NCBI RefSeq assembly: GCF_000217815.1
Contig: NC_015707.1
Span: forward strand, 1,104,014-1,168,013
Length of the DNA: 64,000 bases
Direction of reading: 5' to 3'
From: Pseudothermotoga thermarum DSM 5069
GTDB lineage: Bacteria > Thermotogota > Thermotogae > Thermotogales > DSM-5069
This document shows positions 38,009 through 52,188 of the stretch, piece after piece. The first letter of the stretch is position 1. Each line of letters begins with the position of its first letter. Both the position numbers and the translations under genes were made by a program. The notes below the pieces were generated by a model. That model worked only from the letters and a program-made list of their open reading frames with translations. It was not told the origin of the DNA and did no database searches.

Positions 38009-39151
38009 ATGAAAGCAGCAAAACTTATTTTCATGGTTTCAACAGTTGGTACAAGTCTGTTGACAAACGCGGCGGTGAAGGATCAGCAGCTTCAATCTTT
38101 ACTCAGAGAAACTGCCAACCTAAAGGAAAAAGATTTGAAAGAGGATCAAAAAGAGGTTCTTCAGAAACTCATAGATCAAGTTGGAAAAAGACTTGAGCTA
38201 TCCACTGTTCAGGAGATCAAACGCATGAGCGCCGAGCTGAATGGAATATTGAGCTACTTCAACAACCAAAAACCAGATCCAACAAGCATCCATGTTTTGA
38301 TGTCCACCGATACCTATCAAGGGATCAGCACGGCAAAGCTTGTTCAGGAACGTCTCAGGCAATTCGGTGTGGAAAATGTTCAAATCTTCACACCACCCAA
38401 CTTCGACGTTTCGACAACGAAGAATTTCTCAGAAGGGATGAAAGCCATCGTCAAATGGTGTTATGAGGTTGCAAAAGGCTACAGGGAAGAAGGTTATCAT
38501 GTCGTCTTCAACCTTGTCGGAGGGTTCAAAAGTTTTCAAAGCGTTATGAACACCTTGGGAATGTTCTACGCGGATGAAGTCATCTACATATTTGAAGCAC
38601 CTTCGGCGGATTTGATAAGGATCCCAAAATTACCCATAAAGATGGAAGATCAACCAATACTGAAAGAAAAAGTGGTTCTTTTTGCGATGATGGAACATTG
38701 CTACATTGCCGAGCCACACGAGGTTTCGAACATACCTGAGATATACCTTGAAAAAGACCAAAATGGTAGAGCAACCTTGAGCGAATGGGGCTTACTGGTT
38801 TGGAACGAGAACAAGTACGAGATCTTGAAAAACATGGAACTGGAAAAACTGACCTTTCCAAAAATCGTTTACGAGAAAAGTTTTCTGAAGGACTTTGAAC
38901 AGATCGCAAATTCCAAGCAAAAAGTTGACTTGATACTCACTCTTGCCAAAGTATCGGTGAACTATTCCGAAAAAGGGATTGCAGCTTTAAAAGCCGATCC
39001 TGGATTGTTATACGAAAACTATAAAAACCGTGAAGACAGACTTGGGCATTTCAGAATCAACGAAGGTTGGAGAGTCTCTTGCGAGGAAAGAAACGGTATG
39101 CTGTTTTTGAGGCACGTGGGAACACACGATTATGTCAACAGAAACCCTTAA
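38009..39151 (+). CDS. CARF-domain effector with RelE-like C-terminus
   Basis: A 380-residue protein. The start region LIFMVSTVGTSLLTNAA and the two ligand signatures VLMSTDTYQGISTAKLVQ (near residue 97) and FNLVGGFKSFQSVMNTLG (near 172) identify an APE2256/Csm6-type CARF sensor. After a helical linker the last 55 residues (RLGHFRINEGWRVSCEERNG then LFLRHVGTHDYV) resemble the RelE/ParE toxin core, with no HEPN R-x4-6-H motif. It is therefore probably a cyclic-oligoadenylate-activated ribosome-dependent or other mRNA interferase, an inference from fold. ATG at 38009 follows GGGGGTGAG. It overlaps cas6 codons slightly if the longer cas6 start is used. Confidence 0.78.
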   Translation: MKAAKLIFMVSTVGTSLLTNAAVKDQQLQSLLRETANLKEKDLKEDQKEVLQKLIDQVGKRLELSTVQEIKRMSAELNGILSYFNNQKPDPTSIHVLMSTDTYQGISTAKLVQERLRQFGVENVQIFTPPNFDVSTTKNFSEGMKAIVKWCYEVAKGYREEGYHVVFNLVGGFKSFQSVMNTLGMFYADEVIYIFEAPSADLIRIPKLPIKMEDQPILKEKVVLFAMMEHCYIAEPHEVSNIPEIYLEKDQNGRATLSEWGLLVWNENKYEILKNMELEKLTFPKIVYEKSFLKDFEQIANSKQKVDLILTLAKVSVNYSEKGIAALKADPGLLYENYKNREDRLGHFRINEGWRVSCEERNGMLFLRHVGTHDYVNRNP

Positions 39152-39164
39152 GGATGGTGGTTGG

Positions 39165-39914
39165 ATGAGGCTGACAATCACTCTTCAAAGCGATGAAAAG
39201 ATCAATCTTCCTGTGAATTACAATCACATGATCCAAGCGATGATCTACAACGTTATGGATGATCCAACTTTTCGAGCTTATTTACACGAACACGGTTTTG
39301 AGCTTGGAAAAAGAAGTTTCAAGATGTTCACCTTTTCTTGGCTCATGGGCAAAAGCGTATTTGAAGAATCGACAAAGAGAATAATCTTTGAACCGCCGGT
39401 GAAACTGGTTGTGTGTTCCCCAATGAACTCAATAATGCGTGAACTCGGTTCTGGACTTCTAAAAAAGAAATACATACGGCTCGGTGAGAATCTACTACAG
39501 ATAAGCGAGATAGCCACCATGAATAACGATGTCAACGAAAGCAGAATACGGGTGAAGATGCTTTCCCCGATAGTCGTCTACAGCACTTTCGAAAAACCCG
39601 ATCAAAACAAACAGACGCATTATTATTCGCCGTTTGAGGAAAGGTTTAACGAACTTGTGAAACAGAACCTCGAGAAAAAGTATTTCATCGTCTATGGAGA
39701 AAACCTCTCGGAGGATGGGTTCTTGATCGAACCTGTGAAAGTCGGCGGGAGACACTTTGTCATCACTTCCTACAAAAACACCTGGATCAAAGGTTGGATG
39801 GGAGAGTACGAACTAAGGGGAAATCCAAAGCTGTTGAAACTGGCGCTCGATGCAGGCTTGGGCTCGAAAAACTCTCTGGGTTATGGATGCTGCGAAGTTG
39901 TCCAAGGAAAGTGA
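39165..39914 (+). CDS. cas6: Cas6 CRISPR RNA endoribonuclease
   Basis: A 249-residue RAMP protein that cuts the repeat to make crRNAs. It starts MRLTITLQSDEKINLPVNYN (ferredoxin-fold first strand) and ends with the glycine-rich loop DAGLGSKNSLGYGCCEVV diagnostic of Cas6. A possible catalytic His is in NYNHMIQAMIY near residue 22. ATG at 39165 gives the proper N-terminus; the frame extends 33 bases further with no need. It is the only cas6 in the window and probably processes all arrays, since repeats are nearly identical. Confidence 0.92.
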   Translation: MRLTITLQSDEKINLPVNYNHMIQAMIYNVMDDPTFRAYLHEHGFELGKRSFKMFTFSWLMGKSVFEESTKRIIFEPPVKLVVCSPMNSIMRELGSGLLKKKYIRLGENLLQISEIATMNNDVNESRIRVKMLSPIVVYSTFEKPDQNKQTHYYSPFEERFNELVKQNLEKKYFIVYGENLSEDGFLIEPVKVGGRHFVITSYKNTWIKGWMGEYELRGNPKLLKLALDAGLGSKNSLGYGCCEVVQGK

Positions 39915-39955
39915 GGTGAAGAGTTTTCGGCAAATCCAAAGCAAGTTCGAAAAAA

Positions 39956-41458
39956 GTGAATACCAATCCACCAATTAAAGTGGATTACACTCCGACAGGA
40001 AACTTCTGGATAGACAATGGTTTAGTTCACCTTCTAATCAAAAAAGGACCTGGAATTTACCCCGCAAATGATCTTTTAAGAGAACTGCGGAACGACCTTC
40101 TTCAACCCACCGGTAAGATGGATCAATATTATGATCAGAATACCAAACAGCTGGTTACTTACCCAAAACTCGGTTGGATAGCCCCAGCAAGCCATTTCAT
40201 AAAGGTCAACGATACGTCGAGCAACAAAATCAGCGTTGCAGGCAAAGAATACAGAACCGCTCCAGCGAACCCAGAGCTGAATTTAAAATACAAATCAAAG
40301 ATAGCAGATTGCGAGATTTGCGGAACACATGGCTTGGTCGTTGACACCTCAATGTGGATCTTTCCAATGGTTGCGGCAGTTGACAAGTTTGGCAATTTCT
40401 ATTCTGGTTCCAAAAAAGGAACACTGCTCTGCCCTCGATGCGCCGTGGCCGGGGTGGCGTGTTATCTATCCCTCCTCTGGGTTGTGCAAGGTCGCCAGAC
40501 CTTGCACATCTTCCTGTTCCACGGAGATCTGAAAGACCTTGAACTATTGCGCAAAGAAGTGATTGACTATCTCAAACTGTCAGAAAGCAAAGCTGGAAAT
40601 GTGAAGCTTCCGTTCTACGGTGATTATCCACATGAAACAATTCTTGCGTTGCTGCTGGAATTGTTCTCACATATTGGTAGTTCCAAAACGCTTTCAGATG
40701 AGAGAAGAAAGATTTTGGCATCGATCTTCGGCGTGGAAACTGCTGCTGTTGGCTCAAAAGGCAGCAAACTGAGTTTGTATTGCTTGAGCGGATCGATTGA
40801 AGGTACAAGACAGGTATTTAAAGCGCGCCATCTTTCAAATATCACGCAACTTCATGCGCTTTATAAACTCTACGAAGGCTGGATCGCAGCATTGGCAGAT
40901 TCGCAGAATCCAAAGCAAGCTCTCACACAAGTGTTCAGGCAGTTTACAGTCAGCCAAAAACAGAGAGAAGAGACGATCTGGCGCGAAAAGATAGCCTGGG
41001 CAATTCTCGAATTCTCCGATCCGTTGCCGTATGTTGAGGATTACCTGTTTGAAGGCAAACTGAGAAGCGACAACAAGACGCCTCTTGTTTGGGGAACTGT
41101 GAATGTGATCGATTACTACTGCAAGGAGGTGCTTAGTATGGAGGAAAAACTGATAAAAGTACTCATGGGTTTTGGATCAAACCTTGGAAAACAGTCTGCT
41201 GAGAAAAAGGACATGAGCGTGCTTTATGCCTTAAGAAACGCGAAAAACGTTGAAGAGTATCTCAAAGTACTCAACGACGCGCAGTTTCGATTCGAAATGA
41301 TGGTTCCAAGGGAGATAGTTGAGCTTCAGGAAGAATCCAAGATATTCAACACACCTTGGGTGAGAGTGAAAACACTTCTGTCAATATACGCCATGAACAG
41401 CTATCTGAGGACCTTAAAGGGTGGAAACGAGGGACAAGGAGGCGAGAAAGATGAATAA
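39956..41458 (+). CDS. cas8a: Cas8a/Cst1-type (CXXC-CXXC) large subunit of type I-B Cascade
   Basis: About 500 residues. The family opening YTPTGNFWIDNGLVHLL and the paired zinc cysteines DCEICGTHG (near residue 119) and LLCPRCAVAG (near 160) identify the Cst1/Cas8a1 group used in Thermotogales type I-B systems. It recognises the PAM and holds the crRNA 5-prime tag. GTG at 39956 has no good ribosome site; GAGGTGA lies about 40 bases upstream, after the cas6 stop, with no usable start codon at the normal distance. Its 3-prime end overlaps cas7 by 8 bp. Confidence 0.88.
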   Translation: MNTNPPIKVDYTPTGNFWIDNGLVHLLIKKGPGIYPANDLLRELRNDLLQPTGKMDQYYDQNTKQLVTYPKLGWIAPASHFIKVNDTSSNKISVAGKEYRTAPANPELNLKYKSKIADCEICGTHGLVVDTSMWIFPMVAAVDKFGNFYSGSKKGTLLCPRCAVAGVACYLSLLWVVQGRQTLHIFLFHGDLKDLELLRKEVIDYLKLSESKAGNVKLPFYGDYPHETILALLLELFSHIGSSKTLSDERRKILASIFGVETAAVGSKGSKLSLYCLSGSIEGTRQVFKARHLSNITQLHALYKLYEGWIAALADSQNPKQALTQVFRQFTVSQKQREETIWREKIAWAILEFSDPLPYVEDYLFEGKLRSDNKTPLVWGTVNVIDYYCKEVLSMEEKLIKVLMGFGSNLGKQSAEKKDMSVLYALRNAKNVEEYLKVLNDAQFRFEMMVPREIVELQEESKIFNTPWVRVKTLLSIYAMNSYLRTLKGGNEGQGGEKDE

Positions 41459-42419
41459 ACCAAAGGCAGTCTGCATAGGTTATCTTTCAAAGGTTTCAGT
41501 CGGTAACGTGAATTCATCTCACACCGAAGGGAATGTAATAGTCGCCAAGAAAGTCACTTTACCGGATGGGAATTTCATACCCTACTACTCGGGGCAGTGC
41601 ATCAGAAGAATAATCAAAGACAGGTTTGAGGACTTCTCCCTTGAAGTCTCCGATTTGGCGGCTAAGGTCGAGAACAAACAAGTTCTCCCACCGGTAAGAC
41701 CTTGGGAATTCATCGACGAAGATCTTTTCGGCTACATGGAACCAGGCGGAAGGAAAAGAACATCCCCCGTTAGGGTCTCCGCGGCTATAGGTTTGTTCCA
41801 GTACCAAGGTGACAGAGACCTTGGAACAAGAAATTTCCAAAGATTCGGTCTGGAAGCCAGCGAAGGTGGAAATATGTACGAAACGGAGGTATACGCAAAC
41901 CTTTTCAGAGGAAACATACTCGTTGAATTGGATAGACTCGGAGTGTTCAGCGATTTGGAAATCGGTGAAGAAGCAGGGAAACACCTGAAGGACCTCGAAA
42001 GAGTTGAAAAGAATGGTCGAATAATCTGGGTATTACCAAAGGAAAAACGCGTTGAAAGACTGAAATGGCTGCTTGAAGCTGTGAAAACGCTTTGGGGTGG
42101 AGGAAGAACGGCAAGGCTGTTGAGCGATTTATCCCCCAAGTTCTTTGCATATGCCAAGCTGACAACAAAGCATCCTGTTTTTCTCGAATCCATCGAAGTT
42201 AAGTACTCCCAAGGAAAATACGAGTTGATCTTAGATCCACTCCTTTCAACTGTTAAGAAGTTTGGAGACTACGCCGATCGTTTTATCTTTGGTTTTGAGT
42301 CCGGTTTTCTTAGCAACGAAAACGATATACGGAAAGCTTTCTCGGAGCACAACAAAGTTACAGTATGCCACATTCACGAAGCCTTCGAAGAAGCGAAAAA
42401 GGATGTTGAGAGCATATGA
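41451..42419 (+). CDS. cas7: Cas7 (Cst2/DevR family) backbone subunit of type I-B Cascade
   Basis: A 322-residue RAMP protein forming the crRNA-binding backbone. It begins with KAVCIGYLSKVSVGNVNSSH and has the DevR-type segments GNFIPYYSGQCIRRIIKDRF near residue 40 and RTSPVRVSAAIGLFQYQGD near 103. ATG at 41451 follows ACAAGGAGG. It overlaps cas8a upstream and cas5 downstream (4 bp), as expected for a tightly packed operon. Confidence 0.93.
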   Translation: MNKPKAVCIGYLSKVSVGNVNSSHTEGNVIVAKKVTLPDGNFIPYYSGQCIRRIIKDRFEDFSLEVSDLAAKVENKQVLPPVRPWEFIDEDLFGYMEPGGRKRTSPVRVSAAIGLFQYQGDRDLGTRNFQRFGLEASEGGNMYETEVYANLFRGNILVELDRLGVFSDLEIGEEAGKHLKDLERVEKNGRIIWVLPKEKRVERLKWLLEAVKTLWGGGRTARLLSDLSPKFFAYAKLTTKHPVFLESIEVKYSQGKYELILDPLLSTVKKFGDYADRFIFGFESGFLSNENDIRKAFSEHNKVTVCHIHEAFEEAKKDVESI

Positions 42420-43135
42420 AGGCGTTGTGGGTCAAAGTCATAGCGCAGGCATGTTCCTTCAGACCTCCTTTGGATCATGTCTACCAAAGAACGTTGCCCC
42501 TTCCGCCACCAACGACAATTTTGGGTTTTGCCGGAGCAGCACTTGGACTTGAGGACAAAGCTATCTGGAGTCAAGAAAGTCCGTTGCTAAATGTGAAAGT
42601 ATCTGCACTCTTGTTGAACAAACCTGGTTTTGCGAAAGATATGTGGAAGATTCTGAAAATAGACAACTACAAAATCTCCGAGCGCTCTCCGTACTTTCGA
42701 GAAATGCTTTTCAACGCCCGCTACATGCTTGTATACGGCTCAGCCGATGAGGATTTTTTGAAGCGCTTGAAAGAAGCTATCCTCGATCCTGTGTACGCTC
42801 TATCGCTTGGCAGAGAAGACGAACTTGTGTTGGTGGAAGAGTGTGACATAGCAGAGCTGCAGGTTGGCGGAACAACCTTCTATGGAACAGCTCTTGCTGG
42901 GGATATATCCAAAATGAAATTCCACTGGATACCAAAAGGCGGCGTAAAGTTCGAACCTCCAATCTGCGAGAACATGCCTGTTGCTTTTGAAGTGGATAAA
43001 GATGGCAGACGTTATCCGAGATCAAAACAGCTTCTGACCTTTTTACCTTACGATTTGCACGTCGTGCTAAATGAACCAGTGAACTCTTACACCTTGGAAA
43101 TTCTCAAAGGAAGGAATTTCACATGGATGTCTTAG
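42416..43135 (+). CDS. cas5: Cas5 subunit of type I-B Cascade
   Basis: A 239-residue RAMP protein that caps the crRNA 5-prime end. The N-terminus reads ALWVKVIAQACSFRPPLDHV and the family segment PLPPPTTILGFAGAALGLED lies near residue 30. The position between cas7 and cas3 is the standard type I-B order. It overlaps cas7 by 4 bp and cas3 by 13 bp. Confidence 0.93.
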   Translation: MKALWVKVIAQACSFRPPLDHVYQRTLPLPPPTTILGFAGAALGLEDKAIWSQESPLLNVKVSALLLNKPGFAKDMWKILKIDNYKISERSPYFREMLFNARYMLVYGSADEDFLKRLKEAILDPVYALSLGREDELVLVEECDIAELQVGGTTFYGTALAGDISKMKFHWIPKGGVKFEPPICENMPVAFEVDKDGRRYPRSKQLLTFLPYDLHVVLNEPVNSYTLEILKGRNFTWMS

Positions 43136-45315
43136 ACGTTCTTGCAAAACCGGATGTTCCTTTGATAAAACACAGCAGCGAAGTTGTTCAACTTGCACAG
43201 AAAATTGCAAAGATCTTGATCATAGAGAATGGCATTTCTCAAAGAGCCATCTTAGCTTGTGCTTTCCACGACATAGGAAAATCCACACACAGTTTTCAAA
43301 AATTCGTGCGAAAAGAAACAAAGAAAGCGTATCCGCATGCTCTTGCTTCTCTGCCTTTTATTATGCTTGTTGAGTCGATTCTGTTTGATGAAAACCTTCT
43401 TGCCACAGCGGCGGTGTTGACTCATCATTCACCTTTCACACCTATGCTTTACAAGGGCTTTGAAAGTTCAAGTAAGGAACCAGATTACTTGGATAAAGAG
43501 ATCATAAAAAAACTACTTGCACAGTTACTCCAGGAGATTAACATGCGTCTCCCAAATTCACAGACAGTTGATGAGATCACGCAGCAAGCCTTAACACTTG
43601 GAAAAAATCCAGCGGCAATTCTCGATACACAAATAACCTATCAAGATGGTGATACTGAAACAATCAGGCTCAAGCTTATGAATCTGCCGATTGATGATTT
43701 TTCAAACGTCAAAGCGATCTTACAACTTTCCGACTGGCTTGTCTCGTCGAGCAGCTTGAGTGTTAGAAATCTCTTCCTTGGAAAATCGAATGCATGGATT
43801 GAGAAGATAAAGAGCACGTACAATCTGAGGAATTTCCAGCGAAAGGTTCTATCTTCTCCTGGATACGTCCTGTGGTTGAAAGCTCCTACGGGTACTGGAA
43901 AAACCGAGGCACTGTTACTTTGGGCAAGGGATTCAAAAAAGCTCATCTACCTTCTTCCAACCCAGGCGACAGTCAACGCCATGTGGAAGAGGCTGGCAAA
44001 ACTTTTTGGAAAGCGGAAGGTTTCAATCTCCCATGGAATGTCAGGATACCTTTTAAGATCGCAAGAAAAGGATGAACAAGAATATTGGAATGAAAAACTC
44101 TTGGCAAAGGTGTTTGGCAAACCTGTAACCGTTGCAACGCTCGATCAATTTTTGCTTGCACATCTGAACACAAGGCATTGGGAAATACAAAGAACTCTCA
44201 TAAGAAATTCTACGGTTATAATCGATGAAATCCACTGTTACGATGGTTACACCCTTGGCTTGCTGTCTCAGGCATTGGAATTCGAAAAACCTTTAAAAAT
44301 AGCCTTCGCCAGCGCCACAATGCCCGAGTTTCTCAAAAACATCCTTCCACAAGGACAAGAAATCGAAGCCGAAAAGAAGCTATGGAACCGAAGAAGACAC
44401 TTTGTTGAGCTTGTAGAAAATCCACTGGAAGACTGTGTTGATGAAATCCTACGGTATGCAAACCAAGGGAAAAACGTTCTTGTAGTCTGCAACACCGTCA
44501 AAAAAGCTCAGCAAATGTACCAAAACATAAGCCAAAGATACCGCAAAGTCAAACTCTTGCACGCAAGGTTCATATACAAAGATCGCTTGAAAAAAGAAAG
44601 ACATTTGATTGAAAACCAGAATAAGATGCGAGGAGTGATATTGGTATCAACCCAAGTGGTTGAAGTTAGTTTGAACATATCCTTCGATGTCTTGTTCACC
44701 CAGATAGCCCCGATAGATGCCTTAGTTCAAAGACTTGGCAGAGTCAATCGATTTCCAAGCCGATCAAACCAAGCCGCCCCAGTCTTCGTATCCCTATATG
44801 AAGACGAGGACTCGAAAAGGATTTACGATGCGGAGATATTACAAGAAAGTCGACAAATAACGATGAATTTGCCAAAAACGCCGACTGAAAGAGAGTGGGC
44901 TGAAGCGGCAGATCAGCTTTACAAAGCCATCTGGGAAAGTCAAACATTCCAGCAGGAATTCAATGAAGGCAAAAGAACTTTATATGAGCTCAGAAAGATG
45001 CTTGGTTGTTACACGATAGATCTTCGCGACGAAGATATGAGAAGGAGATTCTCGACTCGAAAAGGTCAGTTGTCTATAGACGTTCTTCCTGCTAAATTTT
45101 TCGACGAAGCAAGAAAACTTATGGAAACCAACCAAAGTTGGCAGATAGTTGAATACCTTGTCCCCGTGCCAATAGGTTGGCTTTATGCTTACAAAGACTG
45201 GTTCCAACCGATAAGCGACCTATCCTGCTTTCAAGTGGATCTTGAGTACGACCAAAAGTTGGGACTTTTGCCTCCCTCAAAGGACAAGATGCCCTCAAAT
45301 ATGGAAATACTATAG
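43123..45315 (+). CDS. cas3: Cas3 nuclease-helicase with N-terminal HD domain
   Basis: A 730-residue effector nuclease that unwinds and degrades target DNA after Cascade binding. The HD nuclease domain is intact (CAFHDIGKSTHSFQKF near residue 47; LTHHSPF near 105). The helicase has Walker A KAPTGTGKTEALL near 253, DEIH in VIIDEIHCYDGYTLG near 367, SATMPEF near 392 and motif VI ALVQRLGRVNRFPSR near 533. Domain order HD-helicase in one chain is the usual form. It is followed 20 bp later by cas4. Confidence 0.95.
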   Translation: MDVLDVLAKPDVPLIKHSSEVVQLAQKIAKILIIENGISQRAILACAFHDIGKSTHSFQKFVRKETKKAYPHALASLPFIMLVESILFDENLLATAAVLTHHSPFTPMLYKGFESSSKEPDYLDKEIIKKLLAQLLQEINMRLPNSQTVDEITQQALTLGKNPAAILDTQITYQDGDTETIRLKLMNLPIDDFSNVKAILQLSDWLVSSSSLSVRNLFLGKSNAWIEKIKSTYNLRNFQRKVLSSPGYVLWLKAPTGTGKTEALLLWARDSKKLIYLLPTQATVNAMWKRLAKLFGKRKVSISHGMSGYLLRSQEKDEQEYWNEKLLAKVFGKPVTVATLDQFLLAHLNTRHWEIQRTLIRNSTVIIDEIHCYDGYTLGLLSQALEFEKPLKIAFASATMPEFLKNILPQGQEIEAEKKLWNRRRHFVELVENPLEDCVDEILRYANQGKNVLVVCNTVKKAQQMYQNISQRYRKVKLLHARFIYKDRLKKERHLIENQNKMRGVILVSTQVVEVSLNISFDVLFTQIAPIDALVQRLGRVNRFPSRSNQAAPVFVSLYEDEDSKRIYDAEILQESRQITMNLPKTPTEREWAEAADQLYKAIWESQTFQQEFNEGKRTLYELRKMLGCYTIDLRDEDMRRRFSTRKGQLSIDVLPAKFFDEARKLMETNQSWQIVEYLVPVPIGWLYAYKDWFQPISDLSCFQVDLEYDQKLGLLPPSKDKMPSNMEIL

Positions 45316-45335
45316 AAAAATCGAGGGGGAAGTTC

Positions 45336-45833
45336 ATGACGCCGAAGATCACCGGTATATTGGTCAACTGTTACTTGATCTGTCCAAGAAAAGTCTGGCT
45401 TGTTTCCAGACAAATCGGTCCCAGCAAAGACAACATTCATCTTCAACTTGGAGAAATCCTGCGTCAAGAAAGCTACGAAAGGGAACTTAGGGAGGTTCAC
45501 ATTGAGCATCTGGCGTTGGATGTAGTTATCATCAGGGATGAAAACTTGATCATAGCTGAGGTCAAAAAATCCTCCAAAGCCAAAAAAGCAGCAAGGATGC
45601 AACTTGCTTTCTATTTGTATGAATTGAAGCGCATGGGAATCGAAGCTGAAGGAGAGCTTCGATTTCCAGAAGAAAGAAAACGCGAACGACTGATTTTAGA
45701 CGAAAGCCTGCAAAAGGAAATTGAAATTGTTATGGAAGATATCAAACAACTATTGAAATCGGAAAAACCCCCTCAGCCAAAATGGATTGGTTATTGTAGA
45801 AATTGCGCTCACTCGGAATTTTGTTGGGCTTGA
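45336..45833 (+). CDS. cas4: Cas4 adaptation exonuclease
   Basis: A 165-residue Fe-S RecB-type nuclease that trims prespacers and selects PAM orientation. The N-terminal Cys is in VNCYLICPRKVWL near residue 8-12, and the three C-terminal cysteines are in YCRNCAHSEFCWA. The nuclease core is LDVVIIRDENLIIAEVKKSS (Asp, Glu, Lys) and QLAFYLYEL. It starts at ATG 45336 after GGGGGAAG and lies just upstream of cas1. Confidence 0.94.
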   Translation: MTPKITGILVNCYLICPRKVWLVSRQIGPSKDNIHLQLGEILRQESYERELREVHIEHLALDVVIIRDENLIIAEVKKSSKAKKAARMQLAFYLYELKRMGIEAEGELRFPEERKRERLILDESLQKEIEIVMEDIKQLLKSEKPPQPKWIGYCRNCAHSEFCWA

Positions 45834-45846
45834 AAGGATGGTTGCC

Positions 45847-46842
45847 ATGGCAAAAAAGACTCTTTACATCTTTGCAAGCGGAAGATTGCAAAGAAAGGAC
45901 AACACCATTTGCGCTGAAACTGAGGAAGGAAAAAAGTACTTCCCTGTTGAGAGTGTAAGGGATATCTTCATCATGGGCGAAGTGGATTTGAACAAAAAGT
46001 TTCTCGAGTTCCTCGAGGAAAAGGAAATCGTCGCACACTTTTTCGGATACTATGGTAATTATGTTGGAACGTTCTATCCCAGAGAGCACAACAACTCTGG
46101 TTATATGATAGTCAAACAAGTCGAACACTATCTAAATCCTTCGCTGAGACTTAAACTCGCCAGAAAATTCGTCGAAGGATCCTTGGAAAACATGCTTCAG
46201 GTGTTGAAATACTACGAAAAAAGGAAGAAGAATCTTGAAGAGTACTGCGAAAAAGTTAGCTCATTACTCAGAACTCTTGAAAACTGCAATTCAATTGAAG
46301 AATTGATGGCAATTGAAGGAAACGCAAGACGTTGTTATTATGAGAGTTTCAACGTCATCCTTGAGGACACACCGTTTAGTTTGGCAAAAAGGGAAAAAAG
46401 ACCCGCGACAGATCCGATAAATGCGCTTATCAGCTATGGTAACTCTCTTGTGTACATGAAGCTTTTGACGGAGATATACATGACCCATCTTGACCCAAGG
46501 ATAGGCTATTTACATACGACAAACTTTCGAAGCTTCACGCTGAACTTAGATGTTGCCGAAATATTCAAGCCCATACTAGCTGATCGAACTTTGTTCTCCA
46601 TTCTGGGGAAAAGGATGATCGATGAGGAGGGCTTTGAATATAAAGGTGAAATGTGCATTTTAAAGGAAAAAACCGCCAAAAAGTACGTTCAAGAGTTTGA
46701 AGAAAAACTCTCCACAACCCTCTACCATAGAGAATTAAAGAGAAATATAAGCTATCAAAATCTGATGCGTATGGAACTCTACAAGTTGGAAAAACACCTG
46801 ATGGGCGAAAAGGAATACGAACCGTTTGTCAGCAGATGGTAA
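45847..46842 (+). CDS. cas1: Cas1 integrase
   Basis: A 331-residue Cas1, the catalytic subunit of spacer integration. Catalytic residues are visible: Glu in MAIEGNARRCYYESFN near residue 158, His in GYLHTTNFRSFTLNLDVAE near 224, and the acidic Asp/Glu in the same segment. The N-terminus is TLYIFASGRLQRKDNT. ATG at 45847 has AAGGATGG upstream; an ATG at 45838 overlaps that site. It is the only cas1 in the window. Confidence 0.96.
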   Translation: MAKKTLYIFASGRLQRKDNTICAETEEGKKYFPVESVRDIFIMGEVDLNKKFLEFLEEKEIVAHFFGYYGNYVGTFYPREHNNSGYMIVKQVEHYLNPSLRLKLARKFVEGSLENMLQVLKYYEKRKKNLEEYCEKVSSLLRTLENCNSIEELMAIEGNARRCYYESFNVILEDTPFSLAKREKRPATDPINALISYGNSLVYMKLLTEIYMTHLDPRIGYLHTTNFRSFTLNLDVAEIFKPILADRTLFSILGKRMIDEEGFEYKGEMCILKEKTAKKYVQEFEEKLSTTLYHRELKRNISYQNLMRMELYKLEKHLMGEKEYEPFVSRW

Positions 46843-46869
46843 AACACACCACAAGAGAGGAAGTATCTG

Positions 46870-47133
46870 GTGTACATCATCCTCGTCTATGATGTCAACG
46901 TGAAGAGGGTCAACAAAGTTCTGAAGATAGCAAGAAAATATCTAACGTGGGTTCAAAACTCGGTACTCGAAGGAGAACTCACCGAAGCAACACTCAAAAA
47001 ACTTCAAAGAGATCTGAGCAAAGTGATAGATCCCAACGAAGACGCACTGATTTTTTACAAACTACCAGATGGGAAAAACCTCTCGAGGGAAACCATTGGT
47101 ACACAAAAAGGCAAAGAGACCTGGGTACTTTGA
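46870..47133 (+). CDS. cas2: Cas2 adaptation protein
   Basis: An 87-residue ferredoxin-fold protein, typical length. It begins MYIILVYDVNVKRVNKVLKI with the conserved Asp 8 and has the second signature WVQNSVLEGELTEA. It dimerises to bridge two Cas1 dimers. GTG start behind AGAGAGGAAG. It is the last gene of the type I-B operon, and leader 2 begins 18 bp after its stop codon. Confidence 0.95.
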   Translation: MYIILVYDVNVKRVNKVLKIARKYLTWVQNSVLEGELTEATLKKLQRDLSKVIDPNEDALIFYKLPDGKNLSRETIGTQKGKETWVL

Positions 47134-47397: not shown

Positions 47398-48841
47398 GTT
47401 TGGACACTACCTATGAGGAATGGAAACTTTTTTCAAAAATATACTTCGCAGTCGAAATTGACAGTTTGGACACTACCTATGAGGAATGGAAACGCTAAAA
47501 TATTCGGGACAGCGGGCTTTGCTGTTCCAGTTTGGACACTACCTATGAGGAATGGAAACACGTCTAAAACCTTGTGCATTGCTAGTCTATCCGTACGTTT
47601 GGACACTACCTATGAGGAATGGAAACTTTGTGCATCTTCCGGCAGTTCTGTTGCTCCCTCTGTTTGGACACTACCTATGAGGAATGGAAACATGATTTTA
47701 ATAAAGGGGGGGTTTGATGGGTAAAAAACCGTTTGGACACTACCTATGAGGAATGGAAACATGGTGGGCGCAAAAAGAAGGAGGGATTTACATGATAGTT
47801 TGGACACTACCTATGAGGAATGGAAACGGTGTACTAGCCAACAGGCACGGCATCTGGCAGAGTTTGGACACTACCTATGAGGAATGGAAACTCTTTTTCT
47901 GATTCGCCGTTGATACTAACTCTGATTAGTTTGGACACTACCTATGAGGAATGGAAACTGTATTTCACGGATCTATGCAGCTTCAGATGGATCGTTTGGA
48001 CACTACCTATGAGGAATGGAAACGCCTGCAAGGCGTTCAAGTTGACGCTAAGACCTATCTCGTTTGGACACTACCTATGAGGAATGGAAACATGTCAATC
48101 GCCTTCGCTGCGGCACGTAACGGAGACATACCCGTTTGGACACTACCTATGAGGAATGGAAACCCGTTAACATACTTAATCGTAAACGGTGGATTCTCCC
48201 CAGTTTGGACACTACCTATGAGGAATGGAAACTCCGCTGCCCCTTCTTTGCCTGCAGGTTCTTCTCTATATCCGTTTGGACACTACCTATGAGGAATGGA
48301 AACCCTTATTCGTGATGTTTAATCTTTCCAACACTGAAGGTTTGGACACTACCTATGAGGAATGGAAACTCTGGCTTAAAAGCAAAGTGATGAGTTCTCT
48401 GCCAGTGTTTGGACACTACCTATGAGGAATGGAAACGCTTCAAGCAGGTGGACTACAACCCGCTTGTTAAAGGTTTGGACACTACCTATGAGGAATGGAA
48501 ACATGCCTTGTGTATTCCAACAATTCCGCATAGAAAATCGTTTGGACACTACCTATGAGGAATGGAAACTCCGAATGCGGATTATAGTATCTCTGTTTTC
48601 TTAGACATGTTTGGACACTACCTATGAGGAATGAAAACATTAATGGGATCTACGTAAATGGCATTGGCCCGCTTAGTTTGGACACTACCTATGAGGAATG
48701 GAAACTTGCGGCACGGCGGCAAATTTCGTCATAGTTCATTTGTTTGGACACTACCTATGAGGAATGGAAACTCGTCATACCCTGCGCCGTCGTAAGCTGC
48801 GATGCTGACCGGTTTGGACACTACCTATGAGGAATGGAAAC
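47398..48841 (+). CRISPR. CRISPR array 2, 22 repeats of 30 bp
   Basis: Twenty-two repeats, starting GTTTGGACACTACC, centre TATGA and ending GGAATGGAAAC, with 21 spacers of about 35-43 bp. Repeat 19 (near 48608) has GGAATGAAAAC. The array lies directly behind cas2 and leader 2, so it is probably the most active for acquisition. The repeat differs from the array 1 form at three or four positions. After repeat 22 the next repeat is found only at 49969, beyond 1.1 kb of phage-like DNA. Confidence 0.97.
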
Positions 48842-49132
48842 ACGTCTTACGATCAGCCAAATTGCCGCGTAATTAAGTATATCCAACAGTGTGTCTTCTA
48901 TCGCTTCATTGTTCGGTTCTCTCTTCGACGTGATTAAATTGATTAACCGTTCAAGTTTGTCACTCATTCTCACAAGCAAACCTATTTCGCCGAACTTAGC
49001 TATGTTTCCAGGTCCATAATCAGCCTGTTTCTTTGCAAACAAAACTGCCGCTTGTTCAATTGTCTTAATGTACTCTTCCAAGACTTCTTGATCCTGCGGA
49101 CAAATCTGTCTTAATCTTTGCAAAAGGTCCAT
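48821..49132 (-). CDS. Phage-type Nmad1/DUF1599-like protein, 3-prime end fused to a CRISPR repeat
   Basis: About 103 residues. The segment QADYGPGNIAKFGEIGLLVR followed by MSDKLERLINL and EDTLLDILNYAAIWLI matches the small phage nucleotide-modification-associated (Nmad1, DUF1599) family, related to MazG-like folds. ATG at 49132 has GGAGGTGG upstream. The last seven codons (VSIPHR plus stop) are the reverse complement of the CRISPR repeat at 48812-48841, so the natural C-terminus has been cut off at or just after its last helix. It is one of four phage-like genes on the minus strand between two repeats. Confidence 0.7.
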   Translation of the reverse strand: MDLLQRLRQICPQDQEVLEEYIKTIEQAAVLFAKKQADYGPGNIAKFGEIGLLVRMSDKLERLINLITSKREPNNEAIEDTLLDILNYAAIWLIVRRVSIPHR

Positions 49133-49192
49133 TCAATCCACCTCCAACGCAATCCTATAACGCAGCTGTAACATTAAATATGCAAACAAAAA

Positions 49193-49212
49193 GGCGGGCT
49201 TGTGTGCCCGCC
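49193..49212 (-). terminator. Intrinsic terminator in the phage-like segment
   Basis: On the minus strand GGCGGGC, a 6-base loop, GCCCGCC, then TTTTTG, placed 21 bp after the stop of the small membrane protein gene at 49234. Confidence 0.85.
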
Positions 49213-49233
49213 TCTCTGGTATGGATATATTCA

Positions 49234-49413
49234 CTACTTCTTGTTTTGTTCTTCTCTTGCGGCTTTTACATCACGCCAGTAGTTTTTCCACCACAGTCCT
49301 TTCTTGATGCTTTCCCAATCTCCGTTTGTCAAATCGCCTAGCAACCTGCCGATAGGTCCGCGTATTAGTATGATTAGCAGTATTCCAAACAATGCATATC
49401 CAAGAATCTCCAT
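49234..49413 (-). CDS. Small membrane protein of the phage-like segment
   Basis: A 59-residue protein starting MEILGYALFGILLIILIRGP, with one N-terminal membrane helix and a charged, tryptophan-rich tail (WWKNYWRDVKAAREEQNKK). ATG at 49413 follows AGGAGGTGG 5 bases earlier. Function unknown; size and topology would fit a phage holin-like or membrane accessory protein, but nothing proves it. Confidence 0.65.
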   Translation of the reverse strand: MEILGYALFGILLIILIRGPIGRLLGDLTNGDWESIKKGLWWKNYWRDVKAAREEQNKK

Positions 49414-49430
49414 ACGACCACCTCCTGTGC

Positions 49431-49541
49431 TCACTTCTTATCTTTCTTATTCTTTGCGTTGATGATTAATCCGACACCGACCAAAATCAGACTCACGACT
49501 ATTAGACCCAACAAAGCCTCCGGAAACAAAACAAAATACAT
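49431..49541 (-). CDS. Tiny membrane protein of the phage-like segment
   Basis: A 36-residue protein with a single helix (ALLGLIVVSLILVGVGLII) and a lysine-rich end (AKNKKDKK). ATG at 49541 has GGAGGGG upstream, and the next gene starts 18 bp after its stop, so it is well supported despite its size. Possibly a lysis or membrane peptide of phage origin; function unknown. Confidence 0.6.
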   Translation of the reverse strand: MYFVLFPEALLGLIVVSLILVGVGLIINAKNKKDKK

Positions 49542-49577
49542 AAAACCCCTCCTCGACTAAATATTAGCAAAAAAAGA

Positions 49578-49594
49578 CCCTGCGTTTTGCAGGG
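49578..49594 (-). terminator. Intrinsic terminator in the phage-like segment
   Basis: On the minus strand CCCTGC, loop AAAAC, GCAGGG followed by TCTTTTTTT. It ends the transcript of the truncated gene upstream (49664-49968). Confidence 0.85.
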
Positions 49595-49663
49595 CCAAAC
49601 TTGGATATTTACCTTCCCTGAAATTGCCCAAACTAATAATACGGCCTGGCAGCGGTCTTAAAT

Positions 49664-49968
49664 TCATATTTCTGTACTTTCTTTAAGGTTATTCAGCGTG
49701 ATTGCTTTGTTCGGGTAGTAACCTTCTGGCATTATTACGCATGAACCTTTGTCTGTGGCAAGGACCAAATTATCTAGATTCACGAACACTTTGCATTTAT
49801 CCACAGTAAACCTTAGCTTGAGCGACGTATCCACAACTTTGACGCCAACACAAAAGAATGCGGTCCCTTTCCGCGGATAATTACATCCGAGATTCTTGTC
49901 CCGTCCCACTCAAACACATCTCTGTTGATCTCTTCGCCTACAGTATGTAAGAGCGATACATTTGCCAC
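49664..49968 (-). pseudogene. 5-prime-truncated, frameshifted gene of the phage-like segment
   Basis: The C-terminal 80 codons are open from 49909 to 49664 (VDTSLKLRFTVDKCKVFVNL; PEGYYPNKAITLNNL). A second frame upstream reads GEEINRDVFEWDGTRISDVI and continues without a start up to the CRISPR repeat at 49969. The two frames meet at the run CGCGGAAAGGGACCGC. The gene has thus lost its beginning at the repeat and appears to carry one indel. The beta-rich sequence could be a phage structural protein; no family was recognised. Confidence 0.55.
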
Positions 49969-50067
49969 GTTTGGACACTACCTATGAGGAATGGAAATAC
50001 TCCTCTCAGATTCTTATCCCCATTGCGCCTGCGCCCTTTTGAATACCACCCATAGGAGAAGGAAAAC
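49969..50067 (+). CRISPR. Distal tail of array 2: two repeats after the phage-like segment
   Basis: A full repeat at 49969-49998 differs from the consensus only in its last base (T for C). After a 39-bp spacer, a strongly decayed repeat at about 50038-50067 ends GAGAAGGAAAAC. Together they show that the array once continued beyond the phage-like DNA. Confidence 0.8.
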
Positions 50068-50122: not shown

Positions 50123-51457
50123 GTGACAAGGGTGAAAACGGTGTCTTTCTTGTGTGAAGTGATTACTCCGCTGTTTATGTCAGGATCTAATGTACAGACT
50201 TTTGAGCTTAGACCTTCCGAGATAAAGGGAATGATGCGCTTTTGGTGGCGCGCTGTCAAGGCACTGGATGACAAGGAAAAATTGCGAGAGGAAGAAACCG
50301 ATATTTTTGGAGGAATAAAGCCAACTAATCTGAAGAGCCCCGTGAGCATAAGAATTATTCAAAACTTGAATGATACATCGGAACAAAAGGCTGTCAAGTT
50401 GGGAGAAAACATTCAAGGTAGAATAAATCAGCGAGCTGGCATTAAGTATCTGTTTTATTCGACCTTTTCTTTGAAGTTTGCTGGCGAGAGGCTTGTAAGA
50501 AAATACCTACAACCTGGAACGAAATTTGAGCTGATTCTGTCATGCCGAGACGATGATTACGAAAAATTTCAAAAAGTTCTTGCTGCCTTTTGGCTGACCG
50601 TTAATTTGGGAGGACTTAGAACAAGGTCGAAAAGAGGCGCAGGAGACATAAGGATTCTGCAACCTAAAGAGTTAAAACTAAGAGAAGAAACACTGAGTTT
50701 TGTAAAGGACGACGATAATAACGTAACAAAGTGGATCGTTGATAATTTTTATGTAGTGAGAAAGATCATCAACGGTTGTAAGGATTTTTGCTCTTCCTAT
50801 TCTAATCTTTCTTTGTCAAGGTTCTTGATAAGCAAGGAGAGTTTCAACAGCTGGGAAGATGCTTTGGACGATCTTGGGAAAAAATACATAGATTTCAGAA
50901 GGAAAAATTCTTCCAAAAAGCCTCAGATTGGGGTTTTTGGACTGCCGGTCAATTACAGGAGGACGAGAATCACTTGGAAAAAGGTCAATGATCAAAATGA
51001 AGACTCTGACCATGATCGGCGAACTTCTCCTCTCATTTTCAAGGTCTTTAGATTTGGCAACAAATACCGCTGGATGGTGCTTCGTATGAGTGGAGAATTT
51101 CTTCCCGAAGGATCTGTTTTGAATTTGTCAGGTAGAACACAAAAGCCCGACTTTTCTTTGATAGATGAGTTTTGGAATATTTTGAAAGAACATGCAGTTG
51201 AAGATATTCTGTCAGTTCCTGAAACCTTGAACAAACTTGCGGCTGAGATCAAAAAAGAACTTGATGCAAGAAAAGTGATACTTTTTGGTTCAAGAGCTCG
51301 TGGAGATGCGACTAAAAAATCAGACATTGACATTGCTGTTGTAACAGGCAAAGCAGTTTCCAATTTCGAGAAAATAGCGAATGTTGACTTGGTAAATCTG
51401 AACAAAGTCAGCAATGATTTGAGGGAAAAGATAATCAAAGAAGGGATCGAGCTGTGA
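50123..51457 (+). CDS. Cmr1-like RAMP protein fused to a C-terminal MNT nucleotidyltransferase domain
   Basis: A 444-residue fusion. Residues about 1-360 are a complete Cmr1: CEVITPLFMSGSNVQTFELR, PSEIKGMMRFWWRA near 35 and GLRTRSKRGAGDIR near 165, aligning with the second Cmr1 at 52317 to its last helix (DFSLIDEFWNIL). Residues about 370-444 form a minimal nucleotidyltransferase: KVILFGSRARGDATKKSDID near 385-404 (G-S-x-R-x-G and S-D-I-D) and a third acidic site in ANVDLVNLNK. This is the MNT antitoxin of HEPN-MNT pairs, and a HEPN-family gene overlaps its stop. A TATAAT at 50075-50080 may be its -10. No stop or frameshift separates the two parts. Confidence 0.88.
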   Translation: MTRVKTVSFLCEVITPLFMSGSNVQTFELRPSEIKGMMRFWWRAVKALDDKEKLREEETDIFGGIKPTNLKSPVSIRIIQNLNDTSEQKAVKLGENIQGRINQRAGIKYLFYSTFSLKFAGERLVRKYLQPGTKFELILSCRDDDYEKFQKVLAAFWLTVNLGGLRTRSKRGAGDIRILQPKELKLREETLSFVKDDDNNVTKWIVDNFYVVRKIINGCKDFCSSYSNLSLSRFLISKESFNSWEDALDDLGKKYIDFRRKNSSKKPQIGVFGLPVNYRRTRITWKKVNDQNEDSDHDRRTSPLIFKVFRFGNKYRWMVLRMSGEFLPEGSVLNLSGRTQKPDFSLIDEFWNILKEHAVEDILSVPETLNKLAAEIKKELDARKVILFGSRARGDATKKSDIDIAVVTGKAVSNFEKIANVDLVNLNKVSNDLREKIIKEGIEL

Positions 51458-51849
51458 TGAGAGAAAGGGTGCAACAATACTTTACACAATTTCAGAATGC
51501 TTTGCGAAATCTGGAAGAGGCAGTACAGTACGCAAAAACAGATATAGAAATCGATGGAACAATAAAAAGGTTTGAACTTTGCTATGAACTCAGCTGGAAA
51601 CTAATAAAGGAATATTTGGCAGACCTTGGACTTATTTGCAAAAATCCAAGAGACTGTTTTAGGTTAGCTTATCAAAATGGATTGATAGCAAACGATCAAA
51701 TATGGATGGAAATGATAGACGCCAGAAACAGACTTGTACGCACTTACTCAGCTGAAGAATCCAGGGAAATGTTCATCGACATAAAAGAAAAGTTCCTTCA
51801 TGAGCTCAAATACCTCTATGATAAAATATTGAACGCAGGGCAAATCTGA
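51454..51849 (+). CDS. HEPN-family protein (HI0074 type) paired with Cmr1-MNT
   Basis: A 131-residue all-helical protein of the HEPN/nucleotidyltransferase-substrate-binding family: FQNALRNLEEAVQYAKTD, KRFELCYELSWKLIKEYL near residue 38 and the active-site helix MIDARNRLVRTYSAEES near 87-103. The toxin motif R-x4-H-x-Y is present as R91-N-R-L-V-R96-T-Y98, with Arg in place of the catalytic His. The codon is CGC, one base away from CAC. Start overlaps the Cmr1-MNT stop by 4 bp, so the proteins are made together. It is either an inactive binding partner of the MNT domain or an altered RNase. Confidence 0.88.
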   Translation: MMRERVQQYFTQFQNALRNLEEAVQYAKTDIEIDGTIKRFELCYELSWKLIKEYLADLGLICKNPRDCFRLAYQNGLIANDQIWMEMIDARNRLVRTYSAEESREMFIDIKEKFLHELKYLYDKILNAGQI

Positions 51850-51873: not shown

Positions 51874-52014
51874 AACTTGTCGTCGACCTTCACTTCCGAG
51901 ATCGACGGCAAATTGACTACGCTAACACTTCAAAAGTTGGCTTGAGAAGAGCAAAAATGATACAATTTGACCAAAACTCAAAGACGCTGGTATAATCTCT
52001 TATAGAGAAAACGG
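51874..52014 (+). promoter_or_regulatory. Decayed CRISPR leader 3 (141 bp)
   Basis: Same start (AACTTGTCGTCGACC) and same promoter-proximal end (CGCTGGTATAATC to AAAACGG) as the 246-bp leaders, but with about 105 bp deleted from the middle and several substitutions. The first motif TTGTCGTCGACCT (51877-51889) is perfect, while the second is degenerate (AGATCGACGGCAA). Confidence 0.82.
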
Positions 52015-52188
52015 GTTTGGACCCTACCTATGAGGAACGGAAATACCCAATATCTAATCGTCAGGTCCTATCCAACGTCGAGTCGCACACACTTGAACCC
52101 TACCTATAAGGAATAAAAGCATATAGACAGCTGAAATAACATGTTTCAAATTGTTTAGGTTTGAGTCCCGCATGTTAGTCGCGGAAAC
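52015..52188 (+). CRISPR. Decayed mini-array of three repeat remnants
   Basis: Repeat remnants of 30 bp at 52015-52044 (GTTTGGACCCTACC start, ends GGAACGGAAAT), 52091-52120 (ACTTGAACCCTACC, ends GGAATAAAAGC) and 52159-52188 (only GTTTGA and GGAAAC ends conserved). They follow leader 3 directly. The next 128 bp to the cmr1 start hold nothing recognisable. Confidence 0.72.

Follow-up and report, generated by a model that had tools for sequence, protein, structure and literature searches.

A 1,127-bp phage-like segment between two repeats of a type I-B CRISPR array in Pseudothermotoga thermarum and its possible origin by recombination through a spacer

How more than a kilobase of phage-like DNA can come to occupy the place of a spacer is the question raised by CRISPR array 2 of Pseudothermotoga thermarum DSM 5069. 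The host genome is a single contig of 2,039,943 bp (99.99% complete). The window, that is, the whole stretch of 64,000 nucleotides that was analysed, covers its positions 1104014-1168013, and coordinates below refer to the window unless a contig or locus is named. The array and its surroundings are made up as follows.

39132 to 47133, plus strand: type I-B cas genes cas6, cas8b, cas7 (Cst2), cas5, cas3, cas4, cas1 and cas2
47398 to 50067, plus strand: CRISPR array 2, repeat GTTTGGACACTACCTATGAGGAATGGAAAC, with its leader at the left, beside cas1-cas2
48812 to 48841, plus strand: repeat 22, perfect (30/30), adjoining the segment at the left
48842 to 49968, no strand assigned: phage-like segment of 1,127 bp, bounded by repeats 22 and 23
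49969 to 49998, plus strand: repeat 23 (29/30), the sole change being C to T at the last base
49999 to 50037, plus strand: ordinary 39-bp spacer behind the segment, by direct reading
50038 to 50067, plus strand: degenerate terminal repeat, by direct reading

The assignment to type I-B is based on the presence of cas8b, a Cst2-type cas7, cas5b, cas3, cas6, cas4, cas1b and cas2. The borders given in a preliminary description of this DNA, with repeat 22 ending at 48841 and a near-perfect repeat starting at 49969, are exact and enclose 1,127 bp, but the normal spacer size of 35-43 bp given there has to be corrected to the 34-42 bp measured in array 2 up to repeat 22. Past repeat 23 the array resumes with a spacer and a degenerate repeat, and the segment is thus located inside the array rather than behind it, near the old, leader-distal end. 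As a spacer would be, it is flanked by full repeats on both sides; its length is far from the ruler-set 34-42 bp, or the 32-48 bp of relatives. Elsewhere in the window, between the two cmr1 genes (51882-52120), the array 2 leader recurs with two degenerate repeats behind it, as the remnant of a further array. Another cas1 of the genome (55% identical) is accompanied by a separate 40-repeat array built on a different repeat, GTTTCAATCGAACTTAAGAGGGATGGAAAC (G000:C1:1707678-1717533; L161, L162).

The content of the segment can be read as a short series of minus-strand genes, all gene-like open reading frames (ORFs) being on that strand.

48842 to 49132, minus strand: DUF1599/Nmad1 gene, codons 1-97, with the last ~12 codons missing
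49187 to 49218, minus strand: strong terminator-like hairpin (-24.2 kcal/mol) with a T tail, after the 59-aa gene
49234 to 49413, minus strand: 59-aa ORF, an apparent membrane anchor matching no known family
49431 to 49541, minus strand: 36-aa ORF, an apparent membrane peptide matching no known family
49576 to 49596, minus strand: intrinsic-terminator-like hairpin with a T tail, after the right-end gene
49664 to 49968, minus strand: right-end ORF, frameshifted near 49860 (frames 49813-49968 and 49664-49909)

The DUF1599 gene belongs to Pfam PF07659 (E 2.5e-6, 28.1 bits against a cut-off of 25) and is cut at its 3' end, as had been proposed; its reading frame runs on into the repeat as VSIPHR and then stops. 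The 36- and 59-codon ORFs carry hydrophobic stretches, and a GTG start at 49434 would lengthen the latter to 66 aa. None of 200 shuffles gave a hairpin as good as that at 49187-49218. According to a reading of its two frames, the right-end ORF contains a single-base internal frameshift. A second gene cut at its 5' end, also proposed earlier, could not be established, given that this ORF runs open as far as the right border, where the final three bases read GTG. Its only match in PHROG, to phrog_4637 (E 0.002), was weak and confirmed by no other search, and we do not adopt this identity. With one gene frameshifted and another truncated, probably none of the phage genes of the segment is now functional.

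Relatives of the DUF1599 protein are common in phage contigs of IMG/VR, at 43-63% identity, and occur in 111 phage records compared with only 5 plasmid records. The phage style ascribed earlier to the whole segment thus stands for its left part, which on good sequence evidence is phage-like, and for the rest linkage and the small-gene style would point to the same source. A search among phages and plasmids, as had been suggested, yielded these relatives but no parent: neither the segment DNA nor the DUF1599, right-end or 59-aa proteins identified a parent phage in INPHARED, PLSDB and IMG/VR as searched, and GTDB contigs contained no parent either. We also looked for the alternative that the segment is ordinary chromosomal DNA shared among strains, which had been named as an outcome that would overturn its interpretation. 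The segment is present in a single copy in the host genome, the DUF1599 gene is absent from 45 genomes of the order and the right-end ORF from 103 genomes of the phylum, in a comparison in which the genus is represented by one genome. A chromosomal origin was accordingly rejected.

Several features expected of mobile DNA are lacking. ORF and family analysis of the segment revealed no transposase or integrase, and its ends have no terminal direct or inverted repeats and no att sites. It therefore does not qualify as a transposon or insertion sequence, which would bring a transposase, terminal inverted repeats or a target duplication outside the repeat, or as an integrated prophage, for which an integrase, att sites and a whole phage genome would be expected. 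No other spacer in the host arrays examined matches the segment, which is thus not an obvious self-target. A similarity between the segment and the last spacer (49999-50037) was considered and is not significant (p 0.13).

The preliminary description had argued that the position of both borders at repeat edges favours an event linked to the array. As stated, this argument is weak because any insertion inside a spacer of ~37 bp leaves both repeats intact. What upholds it, for the left border only, is DUF1599 homology that extends to the very first codon. The segment opens with the codon for residue 97, an Arg conserved in 24 of 27 distinct DUF1599 relatives in the alignment; the next residue is Gly in 26 of the 27, and the relatives go on with Gly-(Val/Ile)-Trp and about ten further residues, where array 2 has repeat sequence. 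The conserved Arg places the start of the foreign coding DNA exactly at the edge of repeat 22, with no spacer remnant in between. Judged by this alignment, such a border is what would be expected of a spacer edge within phage coding DNA. By our estimate, a random insertion into a ~37-bp spacer would leave 3 bp or fewer at the left side in about one of ten cases. The right border is without a homologue, so that exactness is readable at the left border only, and it is there alone that foreign DNA is seen to start at a spacer edge, as in a recombination product.

The same alignment bears on the protospacer-adjacent motif (PAM). No convincing protospacer was found for the host's spacers, and we therefore relied on the PAMs published for other type I-B systems, in which the -2 position is a pyrimidine: YYD in T. 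maritima, CCN in P. furiosus and YCN in C. difficile (PMC13199841). The Gly codon predicts NCC as the three donor bases 5' of the left border, which would place a pyrimidine at -2 in agreement with these systems. In the array, this end of the segment is flanked by the repeat-derived triplet AAC, a sequence without PAM activity in T. maritima (PMC13199841). Towards the right end, TCT lies 35 and 37 bp from the border; in front of a presumed second spacer of 35 or 37 bp it would fit YYD and YCN, an arrangement not improbable by chance. The predicted NCC and the TCT triplet are both compatible with recombination, and neither is a proof. As a separate observation, three spacers of arrays 2 and 5 (G000:C1:1152450, 1183840 and 1184509) apparently stem from the same gene in three different phages (peptide F.Q.D.N.LV), and their starts coincide to the base within one codon, a pattern that PAM-directed selection would give.

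To place the length of the segment in context, we surveyed 40 stretches around cas1 in Thermotogales relatives together with the host's own arrays. The 38 array-bearing stretches yielded 1,111 distinct spacers, all of them 32-48 bp long, with no clear spacer length between 48 and 571 bp. Apparent spacers of ~100 bp in relatives were discarded, as each contains a missed repeat. Near the decayed end of host array 5, an interval of 103 bp includes a poor repeat-like stretch (score 11) and may be a decayed repeat plus its two spacers. Two other inserts were found in the arrays of relatives. One, of 4,312 bp, lies exactly between two perfect repeats (L184:13119-17430, genome G030) and carries a DarT-type gene, a macro-domain gene and an IS110-type transposase; the other, 571 bp long, single copy and with numerous GTTGCC motifs, separates the final repeat from the one before it in an array of a species belonging to the same family (L183:12863-13433, genome G003).

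We tentatively favour, at somewhat below even confidence, recombination of phage DNA with the array by way of one or more spacers that matched it, one of three origins offered in the preliminary description. Recombination through a spacer accounts for the exact left border and for the lack of a transposase, an integrase and terminal repeats. The array would once have held a spacer, S1, against the phage, and this spacer would survive as the leftmost ~37 bp of the segment. Phage DNA, possibly a Cas3 cleavage fragment, would have paired with S1 and crossed over, so that the array continued from S1 directly into phage DNA. At the right end, the link to the array may have been restored either by a double crossover that used a second matching spacer or by illegitimate joining within a spacer nearby, and repeats and spacers lying between the two joints would have been lost. 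Spacer-protospacer recombination with phages is known from Varble et al. 2019, as that work is described in PMC10434264 and PMC8616872. Against this explanation, the searches turned up no parent phage with which S1 or a second spacer could be compared, the other host spacers examined do not match the segment, the right border shows no homology of use, and ~37 bp of homology is short for recombination. A simpler variant, a single crossover of a circular phage via one spacer, was rejected: it should leave the same spacer at both ends, and the ends of the segment share no repeat. In host array 4, three consecutive spacers are duplicated (9-11 = 23-25; G000:C1:1176672-1176844 and 1177606-1177778; L040), a sign of recombination between repeats; array recombination does occur in this host.

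The other two origins offered earlier fared less well. Capture of a 1.1-kb prespacer by Cas1-Cas2 (with Cas4), its ends being joined on either side of the then leader-proximal repeat and that repeat duplicated into repeats 22 and 23, would explain why both borders abut repeats, the left one being exact and possibly PAM-adjacent, and a cas4-cas1-cas2 adaptation module does adjoin the array. This capture is nevertheless unlikely in view of the spacer survey: a graded sizing error by Cas1-Cas2 is improbable because a loosened ruler should give intermediate sizes, of which none is clear. To bypass the ruler, two separate half-site reactions would be needed, and our literature search found no report of kilobase spacers. 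That ruler control can fail wholly in nature, storing whole phage genes as one "spacer", is by the same token doubtful, and marginally more so. Ordinary insertion or illegitimate repair, in which a phage piece interrupted a spacer, part of which would still lie at the right end of the segment, seems to us slightly less probable again. More than half of the array is spacer sequence, and inserts there spare both repeats; the DarT/macro and IS110 element and the 571-bp DNA in relatives (L184, L183) are examples of DNA lodged between repeats, and insertions near the leader-distal end of arrays are documented (PMC4869251). Such an event would have to produce a left border without spacer remnant, the one-in-ten outcome estimated above, and to do so without a transposase and without inverted or direct terminal repeats. 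Imprecise repair may account for the right border.

Two further explanations are very unlikely. A phage carrying a CRISPR repeat, as a solitary unit or mini-array, might have integrated by repeat-repeat recombination and then suffered a large internal deletion, an idea already proposed (PMC8616872) that would give exact repeat edges at both borders and require no spacer match. No such phage is known for the array 2 repeat, however, and the joint of the required internal deletion is not apparent in the gene order of the segment. An assembly chimera could be suspected in so repeat-rich a region, since arrays pose difficulties for assembly and a homopolymer error could underlie the frameshift. 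The genome is a single, nearly complete contig, in which a single-copy segment with a G+C content of 0.42, compared with 0.41 for the window, has no second location from which it could have been misplaced.

One crRNA, its 5' handle supplied by repeat 22, can likely still be made from the left end of the segment; it would be antisense to DUF1599 mRNA and likely usable by the neighbouring type III-B complex, the genes of which start just beyond array 2 with cmr1 at 50123. The spacer beyond the insert likely depends on read-through of 1.1 kb. The Cmr1 encoded there (50123-51849) has, fused to its C-terminus, a nucleotidyltransferase domain of the MntA-like kind (residues ~366-443), and its gene overlaps a HepT-like/NTase_sub_bind gene; a type III-B subunit is in this way linked to a toxin-antitoxin pair of the HEPN/MNT type. 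Another Thermotogota family (G047:C25:346-1665) has a homologue that spans the fusion in full (42%, residues 3-444).

In conclusion, we describe a single case of a real and unusual lesion of a CRISPR array, exact at its left joint, by a mechanism that is not proven. As a well-defined natural case, with a left border readable to the base, the segment is most likely a variant of already known recombination between phages and CRISPR arrays and a rare by-product of CRISPR immunity. If recombination is the true origin, spacers are landing sites by which hosts retain kilobase pieces of phage genomes, and immunity is linked to gene capture in thermophiles; if a long prespacer was captured, beliefs on how Cas1-Cas2 measures DNA would change.

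Among known systems, ordinary type I-B acquisition by Cas1-Cas2-Cas4 likewise gives repeat-framed foreign DNA with a 5' end that is possibly PAM-adjacent, in pieces of 32-48 bp rather than 1,127 bp. Insertion sequences and transposons in arrays, such as that in L184, resemble the segment as foreign DNA between two intact repeats, whereas the segment has no transposase or terminal repeats and has its left border at an exact repeat edge. Prophages are reportedly integrated into CRISPR loci of Streptococcus pyogenes, a finding said to come from Varble et al. in 2021 (Nat Microbiol 6:1516); there, too, phage DNA lies within a CRISPR locus, but the segment is only a 1.1-kb fragment without integrase or att sites. 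The closest likeness in mechanism may be to Varble et al. 2019 (Nat Microbiol 4:956), in which, as far as that work is described in the sources above, phage DNA became linked to an array by way of a spacer and required no integrase. That case concerns the transduction of cas loci, whereas here we observe an apparent one-way capture of 1.1 kb by the array of a thermophile, through a matching spacer that we infer.
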